A stretch of 64,000 bases of DNA from positions 1,116,001 to 1,180,000 of the forward strand of contig NC_011901.1 in the NCBI RefSeq assembly GCF_000021985.1. Reading direction: 5' to 3'. The notes below the pieces were generated by a model. That model saw nothing but the letters and a program-made list of their open reading frames with translations, made no database searches and was not told the origin of the DNA. Source of the DNA: Thioalkalivibrio sulfidiphilus HL-EbGr7 (GTDB taxonomy: Bacteria > Pseudomonadota > Gammaproteobacteria > Ectothiorhodospirales > Ectothiorhodospiraceae). The position numbers and the translations under genes are program-made. Positions 11,012-46,312 of this stretch are shown one piece after another. How positions within the stretch are numbered: the first letter of the stretch is position 1; each line of letters opens with the position of its first letter.

Positions 11012-11056
11012 AGGAAGGCGCTAGACTAGACGCGACCCGGCCCTGACCGTGCAGAG

Positions 11057-11581
<525 letters not shown>

Positions 11582-11623
11582 TCATACTACGCCCCATTCC
11601 ACTTATAACGGGCTTATTCGGGC

Positions 11624-12487
11624 GTGAGCAGCGGGAAAGATAGCAAAGAAATCGTCGATGACTTCGTGGGGAAGCTCAAGGCTGACCTGCAGAACAACGG
11701 CATTCAGATTCCGACCCTGCCCGACCTCTCCCTCCAGGCCCTGTTCACCATCAACCGGGACGACAGCTCCATCGACGACGTCACCGCCGTGGTGGCCCGG
11801 GATACGGCCATGGCCACCCGCCTGGTGCGCTATGCCAACAGCCCCGCCTACCGGGGCCTGACCCGCTGTGCCACCATCAAGTCCGCCATCACCCGCCTGG
11901 GCCTGCAGAAGACCAAGAACATCCTCCTGACCATGTCCATGAAGGAGGTGTTCAAGACCGGTCACCGCAGCATCAAGGAGCGCATGGAACAGCTCTGGGA
12001 GCACAGCATGGAGGTGGCCGCGCTCAGCATGCTCATCTCCCTGCGCCACCGCCACCTGGACGGCGAGGTGGCCCTGCTGGCAGGCCTGGTGCACGACATC
12101 GGCGTGATCCCCATCCTCAACAAGGCCAAGGATGTGGACGAGATCGTTCAGAATGACGAACAGCTCGGCATGATCATCGCCTCCCTACACGGCGCGGTGG
12201 GCAAGGCAGTGCTCAAGGCCTGGAACTTCGAACCCGACCTGATCGCGGTGGTCGCGGAACACGAAAACCTCAAGCGCGACCCGGGCGACGACGTACCGGT
12301 GGACTACGTGGACGTGGTCCAGGCCGCCAACGTCGAGAGCTACCAGGCCACCCGCCACCGCCTGGGACGCATCAACCGCCTGCACATCCCCGCCTACCGC
12401 CGCCTCGGCTACACCGCCGAGGACCCCGATCTGCATTGGGACCAGAGCATGAAGGGCATGGAGTTGGTAAGCAGAATATTCCTGTGA
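11624..12487 (+). CDS. HDOD domain protein
   Basis: The 287-residue cytoplasmic protein is built on an HDOD domain (about residues 27-220), with IPTLPDLSLQALFTIN at the front, VRYANSPAYRG and the degenerate HD-like LVHDIGVIP. HDOD proteins are signalling scaffolds related to HD hydrolases, often tied to c-di-GMP or stress control; no output domain is attached here. It starts with GTG 50 bp from the divergent tadA start. It is the last gene before the lower-GC island. Confidence 0.85.
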   Translation: MSSGKDSKEIVDDFVGKLKADLQNNGIQIPTLPDLSLQALFTINRDDSSIDDVTAVVARDTAMATRLVRYANSPAYRGLTRCATIKSAITRLGLQKTKNILLTMSMKEVFKTGHRSIKERMEQLWEHSMEVAALSMLISLRHRHLDGEVALLAGLVHDIGVIPILNKAKDVDEIVQNDEQLGMIIASLHGAVGKAVLKAWNFEPDLIAVVAEHENLKRDPGDDVPVDYVDVVQAANVESYQATRHRLGRINRLHIPAYRRLGYTAEDPDLHWDQSMKGMELVSRIFL

Positions 12488-12788
12488 GCGCGAAGTGCTC
12501 ACAGGGCAGAGACAAGAGGCAAGATGCAAGAGACAGGAAAAAGCCTTTCACTTGTCTCTAGCTAGCGCCCTCATTCCCGCTCAATCATCATCGATGGCTT
12601 TAACCCATTGAAAATATGGGCTTCATGAACGACTGATTTTGGGCTTTACCGTCGCTTATACTGCCAGAATCACCAGATCTTTGTTTCCGCCGATGATGCG
12701 GCGATTTTTCAGACCATGATCAACCAAAAGAATGTCTGATTAACTCTCATCTGGAAATCGCGCATCCAATGGGGAATGCACCATCTCT
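12488..12788. other. Island left border: heptad repeat and gene fragments
   Basis: The first part (12509-12560) has heptad-type repeats (GACAAGA, GGCAAGA, TGCAAGA and a complementary tail). Base composition then drops sharply. On the minus strand a 25-codon tail ends NGLKPSMMIERE. On the plus strand a 36-codon tail ends FQTMINQKNV. Both look like remnants, but neither is long enough to name. No complete gene is visible. Confidence 0.5.
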
Positions 12789-13574
12789 CTACGACGACAG
12801 CAAGATCGAGATGCGACCTTCGAAATTTCGGATGATCTGCACCAAGCTGCCGTGGGGAATCAGCGCAGGCCCATGCTCTTTCTGAATCCACAGATTTCCA
12901 GCCTCATCGCGGACAGTCCATACTCCAGCGACACCGAACTGATCCTCGACCTGAATGTTCCCCACCGGCAGCCCACAGCCACGTGGGATGCGTAAGCAGT
13001 TGTCAATCGCCGAGAACCGAGCGAATCCTATGCTGTGGGCTCTTACGAATAGTCGGCCTTCCACTTCATGCGCTGTTCGTCCATTACGGTCCTGATAGAC
13101 AGACACCGTCAAATACTGCGTATCAACAGCGCTGAGCTTTGTTGCCCAGGTCGAGTCGGGCAGATTGCCGACAACGGCAACATAGCGCGGAATGTAGCTC
13201 AAAAGATCCTTGGCTTGTTCTCGGGTCAGATCTCCAAAAGCCCGTACCAAGCTCGTAACACAAGAGTCCTCTGGGTCACCATAGCGAAAGCAGCGAACTT
13301 GAGGCAGGACGTGGTGTTCCAGCGAATGACCTGCCAGCTCAACCTCGACGACGAACCAATGCGATAAAGTCTTGTGAACAAGCGCCAGGTCCGCAACGCG
13401 ACGCTCGCCCTCCAGGACGAACGCTCCAGCGAACACGCCGCAACGGTATTCCGGCATCAAACACGATAGCGCTTTAACGACCTCAGCCTCGAAGTCACCC
13501 TCGACATATGTCGTTGGATCAACAAGCTGAAAAATGTTTTCGGGATGGCATTCGCCGGCCAATAGCATTCTCAT
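12789..13574 (-). CDS. Putative PD-(D/E)XK-like nuclease subunit of the island system
   Basis: I do not recognise this 261-residue protein by name. Residues 31-95 have the layout of a restriction-endonuclease-like core: Glu near 31, Asp62 in RVADLALVH, then the strand WFVVEVELAG with Glu77 and Glu79 in place of D/E-X-K, followed by a His-rich helix HSLEHHVLPQV. The C-terminal third has no clear motif. The ATG at 13572-13574 overlaps the helicase stop as ATGA, so it is translationally coupled and is the last gene of the minus-strand set. Base composition is lower-GC, like its neighbours. Nuclease function is inference from residue layout and context. Confidence 0.55.
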   Translation of the reverse strand: MRMLLAGECHPENIFQLVDPTTYVEGDFEAEVVKALSCLMPEYRCGVFAGAFVLEGERRVADLALVHKTLSHWFVVEVELAGHSLEHHVLPQVRCFRYGDPEDSCVTSLVRAFGDLTREQAKDLLSYIPRYVAVVGNLPDSTWATKLSAVDTQYLTVSVYQDRNGRTAHEVEGRLFVRAHSIGFARFSAIDNCLRIPRGCGLPVGNIQVEDQFGVAGVWTVRDEAGNLWIQKEHGPALIPHGSLVQIIRNFEGRISILLSS

Positions 13575-14728
13575 GCCCGGCTCCACGTCACGGTTGCTAC
13601 GCCCTCAAGGCGCTCCTCTTCCTCTTTGAGGCGCTGAATTTCTAGACCGGTCGCAACGAGCGTATAGATTGAAGCACGGTTTTTTCCCTTCGCGGGTCGC
13701 ACGACCCGACCGAGTCGTTGGATACGCTGGCGCCGCGTCGCCGTGCTAGCAGCAATGATACCGATTTCAGTTTCGGGCACGTTGAAGCCTTCGTCGAGCG
13801 CACGACACGTTACCAACACATCGATCTCACCGCGTCGGTACTGTCCCAACATCGCGGCTTTCGCGCGGAGCGGCAGCTTAGAGTGATACACGCCACTCTT
13901 GACGCCGTTTTCGGATAGCACGCCGTGGATCAGATCGCAGGCTTCGATATCTTCATGAAAGATCAGGGTACGCTTGCCGCGATTTGCAGCCACCAACTTA
14001 AGCGCCAAGCGAATTCGGTTCAGGCTGAGATTCAAGACGCGGGCTCGCTTCAGGAACAGTGCAATCGTTTCCTCAGCTTCGGTGCCATGCTGGCTGATGG
14101 AGCGCGCTATGGCTCGGCTGAGCTTGTCATATTCGGCTTGTCTGCCTGCTTCCAACTCGAAGACGATGTTCTTCAGTTCGAAGGGCACGATTACACCGTC
14201 ACGCAGTGCATCTGTGTAGTCATAGCTGTAGATGATCTCGCCGAGTGCTGGAACGAGCACATCCTTCAGGCCGTCGTCATATTGCCGTTCAGGAGTTGCC
14301 GAAAGGCCCAAAGACGCGAAGGTTGGAACTTGAAGTGCCGAACGAAACTGTTCAGATGCAGCCTTGTGACACTCATCGACTATTAGGAAGCACTTATGCT
14401 GCTCCTGCATGCGTTCAGGCAACTTGGCGGCCGTGTTGAGCACTGCGATGTTAATCGCCCCAAGGCGGAAGCGCAGGCTCCCAGTGATGATGTTTATTTC
14501 ATCAAGATCAAGATCGAAGTAGCTTGCTGCCTCTTCCCACCATTGCTCAAGCAACGCCGAGGTCGGGACGACGATGAGTGTCGCGACCGGCCGAATGCGG
14601 TCGACGCATGACAGCGCAAACACCGTCTTACCGCCGCCCGTAACGACACTTACGATGCCGCGATGGTTAGCTTGTTCCCAATTAGCGAGCGCATCGACTT
14701 GCCAGCCTCGCGGCGTCAATTTTGGCAT
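13571..14728 (-). CDS. SF2 DNA helicase of the island system
   Basis: The 385-residue protein is a compact superfamily 2 helicase of the XPB/ResIII type. Walker A is TGGGKT (30-35), the DExx box is DECH (118-121), motif III is SATP (143-146), motif V is RALDEGFNVPE and motif VI is QRIQRLGRVVRP. There is no extra nuclease or specificity domain. It follows the GHKL ATPase gene by 11 bp and overlaps the next gene by 4 bp. In restriction systems this type of motor moves on DNA for a partner nuclease; the role here is inferred from context. Confidence 0.88.
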   Translation of the reverse strand: MPKLTPRGWQVDALANWEQANHRGIVSVVTGGGKTVFALSCVDRIRPVATLIVVPTSALLEQWWEEAASYFDLDLDEINIITGSLRFRLGAINIAVLNTAAKLPERMQEQHKCFLIVDECHKAASEQFRSALQVPTFASLGLSATPERQYDDGLKDVLVPALGEIIYSYDYTDALRDGVIVPFELKNIVFELEAGRQAEYDKLSRAIARSISQHGTEAEETIALFLKRARVLNLSLNRIRLALKLVAANRGKRTLIFHEDIEACDLIHGVLSENGVKSGVYHSKLPLRAKAAMLGQYRRGEIDVLVTCRALDEGFNVPETEIGIIAASTATRRQRIQRLGRVVRPAKGKNRASIYTLVATGLEIQRLKEEEERLEGVATVTWSRA

Positions 14729-15347
14729 TCCACGCCTCTTCAGCTCTGGTCTGAAGCGGGATCGATTTTATTCCCGAATAGATCTTCCTCAGCCTGCGCG
14801 CGAACCTCAGCATCCGCGTTGTCGAGTTGTGTCGCCCGCGCTCTCAGCAAGTCATTCTTCAGACGGCGCACGCTGTCTGGATTGACGCGAGAGAGCAACT
14901 TACTAGTCTTGAACTCTGCAACTGCATCAAAGATGTACTGCTGCACGCATTCGAGTATTGCGTCCTTCGCTTCTAGCGTCTGGTAGTAAGGATGCAAGCC
15001 ATTGATGATGACATGGAGAGTACTGTGGTCTGCGCCTGGTACAAACGTGACGTGCGGCTCCCACTCGCTGGCCTCCTTCAGCGACATCACTACTTTCAAA
15101 TCCGGAAGAATATCGAATGTGACCAGCTCCTCTTCGGCGGTAAGCGTCTTCAAGATCTGCTGGTTGTTGGCCGCGGTAGTTTCAGGCGGTGGCAGGGCAG
15201 CGTTGTTCAGCGCGTCCTTGAACTCATTGCTCGTGAATTCGCTTTGCATGCTCATGGCGAACTCGCGCACTTGTTCCTTCGACCATTTTTGCCGCCCGCT
15301 GCCTCGCCGGCTCTTGGCGTACTCTGCATAAGCTTTGGTCTCGTTAA

Positions 15348-16511
15348 GGCATCTCTGAATAACCCAGCCTGATGCCAAAAAAATCTGCTTCCGCAGTCTA
15401 GTCGTTCAAATTTCGATCAATGCTACCCCCCAAAGGGGCTCATTCCGCCCATTTCCCGCCGGTTTGGGGTGGAAAACAGGCGTACTACCCCTACGCGAGC
15501 ATGTAGGGTTCCGCCCGCAGCAGGTTTGTAAACCCTGCCAGCAGGTACAGTCGGCTCGTGTTCTTGGCCAGGCCACGATAGCGAACCTTGGCATAGCCAA
15601 ACATCTGCTTGATGCGCTGGAACACATGCTCCACCTTTGCGCGCATGCTCGCCTTGTTCTTCTCGATCTTGTGCAAGGGCGATCTCTTCGGCAGCGCCGC
15701 GCGCTTGCCTGGCCGCATCGCGATGCGCCAGTCCACCCGGCGATCTTGATGCTCTTCGCGCCTCTCGATGCCCTGATAGCCGGCATCGGCCCACACCACT
15801 TTTTCCTCACCATGCAGCAGTTTGTCGGCCACGTTGATATCGGCTTCATTGGCGGGCGTCGTCTCCAGGCTGTGGATCAGGCCCAGCGTGTCATCCACGC
15901 CCACATGCACCTTCATGCCGAAATGCCAGGCGTTGCCCTTCTTGGTCTGGTGCATCTCCGGATCGCGCTCGCCAGACGCATTCTTGGTCGAACTCGGCGC
16001 CGACAGAATGCTGGCATCCACGATCGTGCCCTCCTTCAGCATCAAGCCCTGCTCAGCCAGAGTCTGGTTGATCTCCTTGAACAGCTTCGCTGCCAGGTTG
16101 TGGCGTTCCAGCAGGCGTCGAAAGTTCAGGATCGTCGTCTCATCGGGGATCCGGTCCAACTTCAAGCCGGCGAAGCGGCGCATCGACTCCACTTCGTACA
16201 GCGCGTCCTCCAGCCCCGGATCACTCAGGTTGTAGAACAACTGCAGGCAGTGCACGCGTAGCATGGTCGGCAACGGGTAGGCAGGCCGACCGCCCTGCGG
16301 ACCGGCCTTGGCGTAGTAGCGAATGATCTTCTTCTCCAGCCGCTTCCACGGAATCAGCCCTTCCATCCGCTCCAGGAACAACTCACGCCGGGTCTTGTGC
16401 TTCTTGTTCTCGTATTCGGCTTCTGCGAAAGTCAGCTGGCTCATGGCGAATGGCTCGGGTTGGATGCGATGCCGGGATTATGCCAAATGGGCTGGGTTAT
16501 TCAGAGATGCC
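15348..16511 (-). mobile_element. IS5-family insertion sequence with TTAA target duplication
   Basis: The 1164-bp element has 22-bp perfect terminal inverted repeats starting GGCATCTCTGAATAACC. It is flanked by TTAA on both sides (15344-15347 and 16512-16515), a YTAR-type 4-bp duplication. It carries one intact transposase gene and lies inside the GHKL ATPase gene. Perfect ends and duplication suggest a recent insertion. Confidence 0.96.
15491..16444 (-). CDS. IS5-family transposase
   Basis: The 317-residue transposase starts MSQLTFAEAEYENKKHKTRR. It has the N-terminal DUF772-type region (about 30-110) and a DDE catalytic core with Asp143 (IVDASILSAP), Asp220 (VWADAGYQG) and Glu272 (RAKVEHVFQRIK, with the R and K of the Y-(2)-R-(3)-E-(6)-K pattern). 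The frame is complete. It sits wholly inside the IS boundaries and is transcribed in the same direction as the interrupted ATPase gene. Confidence 0.95.
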   Translation of the reverse strand: MSQLTFAEAEYENKKHKTRRELFLERMEGLIPWKRLEKKIIRYYAKAGPQGGRPAYPLPTMLRVHCLQLFYNLSDPGLEDALYEVESMRRFAGLKLDRIPDETTILNFRRLLERHNLAAKLFKEINQTLAEQGLMLKEGTIVDASILSAPSSTKNASGERDPEMHQTKKGNAWHFGMKVHVGVDDTLGLIHSLETTPANEADINVADKLLHGEEKVVWADAGYQGIERREEHQDRRVDWRIAMRPGKRAALPKRSPLHKIEKNKASMRAKVEHVFQRIKQMFGYAKVRYRGLAKNTSRLYLLAGFTNLLRAEPYMLA

Positions 16512-17560
16512 TTAACGAGAAATTGCTCCAGCTTGTCCTCTTCGTCTCCCTCAAAAAGGATCGCATCCTTCGTATGGGACACAACGAAACCATCGAGTTT
16601 CAGGACACCAGTGAGTCGCTGCGCAACGAGGTTATTGGCGCCTTCGTCATCGACACCGCCATAAATGGCCTTAGGCTTCCAGGCATTCGGAAAACCCTGG
16701 ATTTGACGATTATTCTGGAAGAGAGAAAAACCACCGAATTTTCGACCACCCTTGCGCAACACACCGATCCAGCCCATAACCTTCTTGCCATCGATGTCGA
16801 GTTCCGGCAGATCGCGGCGCATGACCGTGCCAGACGGGTCGGTATCCCAGTCGCTGTCCTGGGGCGGCGCCACTTCCTCGCCGTTATAGGTCAACTTCAG
16901 TGCTACCTGGCCCTTGTCGTCTGGTCTCAAGTCGAACATGTACATCGAACCCAAATAGGTCTTGATGGTCTCTTCGGAGCGCTTCTGAATCACGCGGCGT
17001 AGGTCTGTGATCGTGATGCGCGTGTAGTGCGCATCTTTGCTCACTGACTTCATAGTCAACGGGACCTTCGCGCCATGGTTCGCAATCGCGTTGACATCGA
17101 CCGTAGCGGTCCATTCTTCGCCGCTGCCCCATTCGCATGTCGTCACCGACCATTTCGCGCCGATCCAGCATGCGGCCGTTTTCATTCCCATGCCATATTT
17201 CGATCGGCCCTTGCTGTCAGCTGTTGGGTTAGCGATCTTCAGCGCGGCGATCAAGTCTGCCTTAGTCATCCCTATCGAGTTGTCCTCGATCGTGATTTCC
17301 TTGGTCTGTCGGTTGTGCACGATGGATATCGTAAGCGGTTGTCCTTCTGACTTCAGCAGATCATTGACAAGCGTTCCATAGTTAAGGCGCGACTGGGTCG
17401 AGTTGTCTACGAACTCGGCTAGCGCGAACCACATCGTGTAGCTCAGACGGCTGTAGGCATCGATCGCCTTTGGGCCGACACTCAGCTCGGCTTCGTCAAT
17501 GTTCTGCGTCATTCGTTAGCTCCCCCAGGTTGAAAAACATGCCCAACATTCGTCGGCGGA

Positions 17561-18553
17561 TTAGAATACTGAAAACGAATCTAGGGTTATGCCATTGCCA
17601 AAGCGACCGCGGGATCCTTTAATGTATTCCTCAGATGCCTCGATGCTGATCCAAAACCGCTCAAGATTCTCTGCAGCGCAACCCGTAGTGTTGCTGCCAC
17701 CGAATGGGTCCAAGACAATATCACCCGGCTCAGTAAGAAACTTGATAAAGAACTTCGCTAGATCGCTTGGCATCCGTGCAGGGTGCAGTTGGAATTGGTT
17801 GTTCCGGCAATACGTTTGATATGCGTCGGAGGCTAGTGTGTTTGCATACGTCAGGACGTTCGACGGAATCGCACCGCCATTGTTTTTCAGGAACGAGGTC
17901 TCTCCGATGTCATGTTCCGACGGGCGCTTGCCGGCGTTGTACGAGCCTTTTTTCAGCAAATCCTTCATGGATTTGCTGTATTCCTGGAGCACACGCTGAT
18001 TGCTCGCCTTGGGTTTTTCGTTTGGTGACAGCCACCACAGCTTCGTGAAACTATCTTTCACCCGAATACGTTCGACATTGACCCACTGTGCCGGTGACGG
18101 CAATTTCGCCGGGTTTTGCCAGATAAACTCTTGGCAGAGGTAAAGATCGTTCTTGGACTGAAATTCAAGAAGCGCGCGTAGTGCCAGTGTGGACATTACT
18201 GGCGAGCCAGGCTCCCAAGAGTTTCCCATCTCGATCACGATAGATCCGTCCGGTGTGAGCATTTTCTTGAAGAGCGGGCCGAACGTACAAAGCCAGCGGA
18301 TATAACTTTCCCCCGTCTCATTGCCATAGCGCTTTTTACGATTCAGTGGGAAAGGCGGTGACGTGAAGATCAGGTTCACCTTGCCTTCAAAACGCGCCAG
18401 AGATCCGTCGCTAAGAATTTCGTCGGATTTGCCGTGAAGCATGCGGCCCCACGCAGTTGCATAGGCAACGTTGGATGGCGGTCGCCCCATGAACGGGTTC
18501 ATCAGCCGCGCACTTGCATCTTCTCCGGTGGTTACTAGTGTAGTTGTCGGCAT
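17561..18553 (-). CDS. DNA methyltransferase (beta-class, N4-cytosine/N6-adenine)
   Basis: The 330-residue enzyme has motif IV TSPPF (64-68) before the SAM-binding motif I DPFGGSNTTG (282-291), the order of beta-class amino-methyltransferases. TSPP is more usual in N4-cytosine enzymes, but N6-adenine is not excluded. The variable middle part (about 150-250) probably recognises the target. It is the first intact gene of the island set and appears fully functional. The 76-bp gap upstream leads to a broken HTH gene. Confidence 0.9.
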   Translation of the reverse strand: MPTTTLVTTGEDASARLMNPFMGRPPSNVAYATAWGRMLHGKSDEILSDGSLARFEGKVNLIFTSPPFPLNRKKRYGNETGESYIRWLCTFGPLFKKMLTPDGSIVIEMGNSWEPGSPVMSTLALRALLEFQSKNDLYLCQEFIWQNPAKLPSPAQWVNVERIRVKDSFTKLWWLSPNEKPKASNQRVLQEYSKSMKDLLKKGSYNAGKRPSEHDIGETSFLKNNGGAIPSNVLTYANTLASDAYQTYCRNNQFQLHPARMPSDLAKFFIKFLTEPGDIVLDPFGGSNTTGCAAENLERFWISIEASEEYIKGSRGRFGNGITLDSFSVF

Positions 18554-18629
18554 GCGGGCCTGTGGTTCTACTTGAATGCTGTTAACGATGGATAATTCGA
18601 ACTTAGTGATAATGCGACACAGTGTGCCG

Positions 18630-18875
18630 CTATGCGGCGATGATCTCTAGCCCATGCTTTTGCACGAGGTGCAGCAACTTCAAGGCGGTACCTGCGGGCC
18701 TCTTCTGACCGATCTCCTACTCGTGCACAGTGGAGACGCTGATGTTGAGCATGCGTGCAAACACGGCTTGGCTGACGCGCGTGTCCTCTCTGATGAGCTT
18801 GATTTCATCCGCTTTGTGCGTCGAGGCCGGAGGCACGCTCAGATGATCGAACTCGCGGAGCGTGATCTGATCCAT
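18630..18875 (-). pseudogene. XRE-type HTH regulator with in-frame TAG
   Basis: The frame starts MDQITLREFDHLSVPP and carries a helix-turn-helix, VSQAVFARMLNISVSTVHE, followed by TAG (18717-18719) where a Trp codon is expected. The same frame then continues EIGQKRPAGTALKLLHLVQK to a natural stop at 18630-18632. Read through, it is an 81-codon protein of the NadS/HigA antitoxin or C-protein type. Upstream of the methyltransferase on the same strand, it could have been the system's regulator or the antitoxin of a lost toxin-antitoxin pair. The truncated form keeps most of the HTH and might still bind DNA. Confidence 0.75.
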
Positions 18876-19276
18876 CGCGCCGGCTCTGCTTGGGCATCTA
18901 ACGGTCCTATACGAAGTTTCTAAAGGTGAGACTTGGTTTTTCGCCTGACCTTCCTTTGTCCGATCAATGGCCACGTCGAGCAGGATCACTGGCCTCCATA
19001 AAAGCCGAAGCAATTTTATAGCGCCAGGTGATACCTGCGCAAACACAGATCGACACTAAAAGCATAGTCGCCACCAGAGTGTCCCCGATTGACCGCCATG
19101 GAACCGGTCGGCAGCGTACCGAGATGGCCAATCGGTACGCCCTATCTTGCCACAGCAGGTTGTCGTGATCGCCACAGATAGCCACCATGACACTCATTGC
19201 GAACACCATGGAATCTGGGCGATGGCTGCCTCGGGCCCGCTCAGCACCTTAGCACGACCCAATGCTTCCCTAGGCG
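18876..19276. other. Island right border, no supported gene
   Basis: This stretch has lower GC than the flanks up to about 19.2 kb. A minus-strand 81-codon frame (18964-19209) has no recognisable family or start signal. No integrase, tRNA or clear attachment repeat is visible. Confidence 0.4.
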
Positions 19277-46232: not shown

Positions 46233-46312
46233 GCAGAGACAAGATGCAAGATGCAAGAGGCAAGAGGGGGTTTCTTTCTTGTCTCTTGTCTCTTGTCACT
46301 TGTCTCTAGGAG
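46233..46312. repeat. Heptad-type inverted repeat between recR and the HIT gene
   Basis: GACAAGA, TGCAAGA, TGCAAGA, GGCAAGA on the left face CTTGTCTCTTGTCTCTTGTC on the right. It separates two genes on the same strand. Confidence 0.8.

Follow-up and report, generated by a model that had tools for sequence, protein, structure and literature searches.

In eukaryotes, MORC ATPases act in DNA compaction and silencing; their prokaryotic relatives are tied to restriction mainly by gene neighbourhood. In the 2008 survey by Iyer, Abhiman and Aravind (PMC2292703), type 1 MORC operons are characterized by Rad25-like helicases, commonly fused to a nuclease of the restriction endonuclease (RE) fold or of the HKD type, and related MORC operons often hold AIPR genes. 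Here, we analyzed a minus-strand operon in a 64,000-nucleotide stretch of the Thioalkalivibrio sulfidiphilus HL-EbGr7 genome (NC_011901.1, positions 1,116,001 to 1,180,000; hereafter the window, with positions counted from its first letter). Its four genes encode, in this order, a DNA methyltransferase, a GHKL/MORC-like ATPase, a superfamily 2 (SF2) helicase or translocase, and an endonuclease. Taken as a whole, the evidence is best explained if the operon is a MORC-linked restriction-modification system that depends on ATP, a reading to which we assign a probability of about 0.6.

As far as the text description in that paper goes, the module shares with type 1 operons a GHKL gene beside a Rad25/XPB-like SF2 helicase, an RE-fold nuclease, and a methyltransferase, as well as a sporadic, horizontally spread distribution; it differs in that its nuclease is separate and carries a B3-like domain and its methyltransferase is M.PvuII-like. 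We consider it best placed among the Rad25-type MORC operons described there, as a variant of them. The likeness to these restriction neighbourhoods, which the original prediction had drawn from the DNA alone, is borne out by the finding of a MORC/MutL-like GHKL protein, an SF2 protein, an RE-fold nuclease, and a methyltransferase in one conserved operon.

The closest layout is that of CglI/NgoAVII, a biochemically dissected system in which a B3 nuclease cuts only together with an SF2 ATPase and ATP, and at unmethylated sites (PMC4267653, PMC5737866). In both, a methyltransferase accompanies a nuclease that ends in a B3-like domain, and the SF2 ATPase is a protein of its own; however, CglI/NgoAVII uses a PLD nuclease and a DEAD-Z1 ATPase, whereas the window module has a PD-(D/E)XK nuclease, an XPB-like motor without Z1, and an added GHKL protein. 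In C5-methyltransferase-MORC-Z1-DUF4420 operons and in mzaABCDE, a MORC-family GHKL protein is likewise flanked by a methyltransferase and a helicase, with a PD-(D/E)XK protein next in order, but their methyltransferase class, their Z1 helicase, and their nuclease are different. Membership in MZA was rejected, as no gene of the operon matches Z1 or AIPR. The earlier claim that few or none of these neighbourhoods had been tested holds for the four-gene set, which is apparently untested, but not more widely: mzaABCDE (MORC/MutL, Z1, AIPR; Gao et al. 2020) is called validated in one paper, and CglI/NgoAVII, without GHKL, has been taken apart biochemically.

The module is also distinct from the other fully described systems with which it was compared. 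DISARM was rejected because no DUF1998 DrmB, DrmA helicase, or PLD DrmC was found by Pfam and no Drm protein stood among the best PADLOC matches listed; BREX, because neither a PglZ phosphatase nor a BrxC ATPase was found by Pfam or PADLOC; and Dnd, because TIGR04095 scored 192 bits, short of its cut-off of 600. Archaeal XPB-Bax1 resembles the module in pairing an SF2 motor with a PD-(D/E)XK nuclease, and bacterial MutL-MutH-UvrD in combining a GHKL clamp, an RE-fold nuclease, and a helicase; unlike the module, both serve repair and have neither a dedicated methyltransferase nor a B3 domain.

Conservation of the four-gene set

When the GHKL part was searched against 84,980 species genomes, nine close relatives emerged, 67 to 87% identical. 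Their contigs carry the labels Beta-, Gamma-, and Alphaproteobacteria, Acidobacteriota, Planctomycetota, and, in one case, unassigned bacterium; several are metagenome bins, and their taxon labels are uncertain. A tenth relative locus (G078) came from a search of 398 genomes of the phylum with the nuclease, which had a clear match only in the window genome and in G078. All four genes were present in identical order in 8 of the 10 relative loci (Proteobacteria and Acidobacteriota). Of the other two, the L013 contig stops within the GHKL gene, and L014 (Variovorax) lacks only the methyltransferase, which is thus kept in 10 of 11 loci with the window counted. The original prediction had staked itself on the genes recurring together elsewhere, and these eight complete loci carry that point. 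Because they lie in distant taxa and hold the set in the same order, the co-conservation is not due to chance. Genes flanking the set are unrelated between loci.

Pairwise identities of five gene segments correlated among nine loci (r = 0.72 to 0.94). This fits a four-gene set that may have moved as a unit, with shared ancestry also contributing to the correlation. Nonsynonymous divergence (dN) was low; synonymous divergence (dS) was mostly saturated, so that only the low dN can be stated, and omega was 0.04 to 0.08 where computable. Intact copies occur in cultured bacteria, e.g., Solimonas soli. No relatives of the nuclease were detected in viral contigs by protein or profile search, and none were found in plasmids; the plasmid search with GHKL returned only two distant relatives, both Z1-linked.

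In Variovorax, an M.PvuII-family gene lies 24 kb from the MORC trio on the same contig (E = 6e-99, 49% identical to that of the window). Such genes were found in 4 of the 398 phylum genomes, two of them belonging to the four-gene module. The same Variovorax contig (G444:C27; L040, L023) carries, beside this methyltransferase gene, a PbeA/PbeC system that includes a PbeC-like ATPase and an McrB-like AAA gene. This Pbe system thus adjoins a base methyltransferase, and no Dnd modification genes were recognized in the stretch read.

The 398-genome survey also returned four other MORC relatives (G420, G425, G391, and G053), each beside a DNA methyltransferase-like gene. For G425, matches in Pfam confirmed the C5 methylase, the Z1 helicase, and the DUF4420 nuclease; the G391 genes fit this set in size and order, and the G420 contig reaches little beyond its GHKL gene. 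A C5-methyltransferase and MORC pair of this commoner, Z1-linked kind is also present in a genome of the same family as the window genome (G010; L005, 68-3060).

Proteins encoded by the operon

The coordinates of all features are listed in Table 1. The methyltransferase matched Pfam N6_N4_Mtase (E = 7e-37) and PADLOC MTase_II (E = 3e-86) and has the beta-class motif order, with motif IV (TSPPF) preceding motif I (DPFGGSNTTG). Its family profile aligned end to end with M.PvuII (1boo; E = 4e-87; runner-up structure, 5e-14), and the window protein itself is 44% identical to M.PvuII (127/286 residues, E = 8.5e-74), with TSPPF common to both. M.PvuII produces N4-methylcytosine in CAGCTG, methylating the inner C. 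Because of this relationship, the product of the window enzyme is likely N4-methylcytosine, and its predicted site is probably CAGCTG or a related sequence. The beta class proposed earlier was thereby narrowed to an M.PvuII-like enzyme. On the restriction side the PvuII system differs: PvuII restriction relies on a single small ATP-independent endonuclease, whereas the window module has three ATP-linked restriction proteins.

Table 1. Features of the operon and its surroundings (positions in the window)
Feature	Position	Strand	Basis
M.PvuII-type DNA methyltransferase, 330 aa	17561-18553	minus	Pfam, PADLOC, profile match to 1boo
GHKL/MORC-like ATPase, N-terminal part (Bergerat fold and S5-like region)	~16520-17512	minus	HATPase_c_3
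IS5-family insertion inside GHKL gene	15339-16520 (transposase 15491-16444)	minus	NCBIfam transpos_IS5_4 and inverted repeats
GHKL ATPase, C-terminal part, open frame	14740-15345	minus	Frame continuity with relatives, profile match
XPB/Rad25-like SF2 helicase or translocase, 385 aa	13571-14728	minus	ResIII, Helicase_C, 2fwr
Predicted endonuclease, PD-(D/E)XK and B3-like domains, 260 residues	12789-13571	minus	AlphaFold2 model, fold comparison
Helix-turn-helix (HTH) antitoxin-like gene with in-frame TAG	~18639-18876	minus	Homologues in L011 and L013
Low-GC island, 6.7 kb	12560-19269		GC content and gap in same-genus genome G044

The N-terminal part of the GHKL protein matched HATPase_c_3 (E = 5e-30). 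Its ATP-binding motifs, an N-box (AEFVDNS), DNSIGM, and GMGMKTA, are invariant or almost so among relatives and are located in an N-terminal Bergerat domain, as in MORC/paraMORC proteins. For the MORC S5 motif (GhXhhpXXRhl), module members read GFS[LM][FY]Q(N/H)XRQI, the sole misfit being Q for a hydrophobic residue after R; Z1-linked relatives match it in full (e.g., GLALFRRKRLI). Beyond the insertion, the frame runs on as in the C-terminal part of the relatives and matches positions 332-526 of profile A5 (E = 2e-83). In a structure model of an intact relative, the N-terminal half matched Hsp90/TRAP1 (Z = 15 to 17), with Morc3 (5ix2, E = 5.6e-9) also among the matches. The match to the MzaB profile was weak (E = 0.0017).

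The insertion sequence (IS) within this gene encodes an IS5-family transposase (E = 2e-101) and is bounded by identical inverted repeats (15339-15369 and 16490-16520, 31/31 nucleotides). Four identical copies of the transposase are present in the genome; therefore, the insertion is probably recent.

The helicase matched ResIII (E = 2e-19) and Helicase_C (E = 5e-15) in Pfam, and its profile matched archaeal XPB/Rad25 (2fwr, E = 1e-40). Motifs GGGKT (Walker A), DECH, SATP, and QRIQRLGR (motif VI) were invariant among 10 sequences. Its best defence profile was PADLOC PbeA (E = 1e-74), limited to profile positions 250-643, the helicase half; only a weak match to BrxHI/BrxHII (E = 1e-4) was found. 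The protein carries no fused nuclease, the nuclease being encoded in trans.

For that nuclease, Pfam gave no family and a profile search against PDB sequences returned nothing usable; both of its domains were seen by fold comparison only. An AlphaFold2 model built from ten homologues had a pLDDT of 85. Residues ~20-160 matched NucS (2vld, Z = 9.3) and EndoMS (5gke, Z = 9.0), with Bax1 and restriction nucleases at lower Z. Residues ~174-260 matched the plant B3 domains of VAL1 and LEC2 (Z = 8.2 to 8.6, Foldseek E = 3.5e-4; for VAL1, Z = 8.6 over 83 residues with a root mean square deviation of 2.4) and, more weakly, the B3-like domains of BfiI (2c1l, Z = 6.3) and LlaJI. Residues E24, E28, D61, E76-V-E78, H82, H87, and Q91 were invariant in 10 of 10 sequences, and this catalytic pattern is unchanged in homologues 41 to 75% identical to the window protein. 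Judged by the model, the product is a PD-(D/E)XK-B3 endonuclease with an E-D-ExE site, predicted to read sequence. The PD-(D/E)XK fold that had been put forward as putative is thus supported by the model, and the B3-like domain comes in addition to it. Homology to the Z1-linked DUF4420 nuclease was not detected (hhalign probability of 0.2% with one DUF4420 member). A lone protein near ATP synthase genes in another genome (G134; L021, 7003-8007) has the nuclease motif D...IEVEL..HS..HVLPQ together with a C-terminal DUF5655. By this shared motif, the nuclease family reaches beyond the four-gene module, with another C-terminal domain.

Proposed mechanism and alternative explanations

If the module restricts DNA, its M.PvuII-like methyltransferase would mark host sites with N4-methylcytosine, and the B3-like domain of the nuclease would recognize the unmodified site. 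A GHKL/MORC dimer would then close as a clamp on DNA, the XPB-like motor would pump or distort DNA, and the nuclease would cut only once licensed by both ATPases, with protection against phages as the predicted outcome. The logic would be comparable to that of MutL-MutH-UvrD and the layout to that of CglI/NgoAVII; the latter offers a precedent, by analogy, in which cutting by a B3 nuclease requires both an SF2 ATPase in trans and a site free of methylation, and the XPB-Bax1 helicase-nuclease pair may serve as one for the pairing of motor and nuclease. A more specific proposal, which we advance tentatively and with more doubt than conviction, is that the restriction endonuclease cannot work without its MORC-type GHKL clamp, which would close on DNA and license the B3-guided PD-(D/E)XK nuclease together with the XPB-like motor. 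If so, direct assays of a prokaryotic MORC relative could link DNA compaction or clamping to a read-out of methylation.

Several observations weigh against restriction by this module. The nuclease site is ExE, with E at the position of the usual K in PD-(D/E)XK enzymes; BamHI has the same replacement at its catalytic site. The model of the intact GHKL relative had a low-confidence pLDDT of 61. The Variovorax M.PvuII-like gene adjoins PbeA/PbeC genes and may serve those; its presence apart from the trio, one post hoc case, is a hint that methylation matters. The window copy is itself broken, its GHKL gene being split by the IS. Because of this split, together with the stop in the HTH gene, restriction has probably been lost in the window genome, while methylation may persist. 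The locus there is quite likely a decaying relic in which methylation is the most that may remain of its function, although neither the methyltransferase frame nor any other besides GHKL and HTH is interrupted, and the copies in relatives are intact. Such decay is compatible with the restriction reading of the family. Finally, PbeABCD, whose motor is related to that of the window, is reported to stop virus DNA replication without cutting. Were the module to act likewise, methylation would mark self, the motor and GHKL protein would block foreign replication, and the PD-(D/E)XK protein would mainly bind or nick DNA. PbeA is the nearest defence-library match of the motor, and the ExE site would suit such a role; however, the alignment leaves out the HKD nuclease domain of PbeA, the operon has neither the ABC ATPase (PbeC) nor a DndE-like PbeD, the catalytic pattern is invariant across diverged nucleases, and Kaur et al. 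make the case that DNA is cut by PbeA systems. PbeABCD membership was rejected on the partial alignment and the missing genes, and we regard a mechanism of that type as unlikely.

An abortive response, in which the GHKL protein and motor act as sensors of phage DNA or of replication intermediates, the nuclease attacks host DNA, and the methyltransferase sets the threshold, appears less probable still. Abortive action is common among GHKL and nuclease defence systems, and AIPR genes often accompany related MORC operons in the 2008 survey; but a dedicated methyltransferase is found in nearly all of the loci, and no AIPR gene, toxin, or membrane effector is conserved across them. It is very improbable that the module is a housekeeping or repair unit of the XPB-Bax1 or MutL type. 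Folds near NucS and Bax1 and the XPB-like motor would agree with this, yet the distribution of the nuclease in the phylum is sporadic, the set is linked to an M.PvuII-type methyltransferase among unrelated flanks, and it lies in a low-GC island absent from a congener. Restriction-modification of the MORC-linked kind remains the preferred reading.

The interest of the set, conserved as it is across distant bacteria, does not depend on the window copy being active. With only four genes, a predictable methyltransferase, a nuclease expected to recognize its site by itself, and cultured bacteria that hold intact copies, the module offers a practical route to the role of a MORC-like clamp in a DNA-cutting machine; its components are separable, and CglI/NgoAVII provides the clamp-free comparison.

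Locus layout, HTH gene, and low-GC island

The linkage claimed for the minus-strand methyltransferase, GHKL, SF2 helicase, and nuclease genes was found in full, with tight spacing: 48 nucleotides separate the methyltransferase and GHKL genes and ~11 the GHKL and helicase genes, and the nuclease ATG at 13571 overlaps the helicase stop as ATGA. An alternative listed nuclease start is a GTG at 13586, 5 codons upstream of the ATG. A scan for sigma-70-like promoters found no site, the count being below chance expectation.

The original prediction had also counted a broken HTH gene as a fifth member of the set. The in-frame TAG is indeed present, but the gene falls outside 12789-18553 and occurs in only 3 of 11 loci, with intact homologues in L011 and L013 alone. 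In L013 (2951-3629), a RelE toxin gene (PF06296, E = 1e-46) and an HTH antitoxin-like gene lie directly upstream of the methyltransferase gene. A role as restriction controller or core gene was rejected on this distribution and pairing, and the window gene is probably what is left of a RelE-HTH toxin-antitoxin pair.

As predicted, the operon lies in a low-GC island (0.549 versus 0.664 for the remaining window). Nothing in a genome of the same genus (G044; L027) matches the island; there, sequence corresponding to the window from 19270 on abuts a segment matching 11016-12559, which is inverted in G044. This segment contains an HDOD gene and is bounded by ~50-nucleotide repeats (one at 12508-12559), further copies of which occur within the window, e.g., at 46233-46309.

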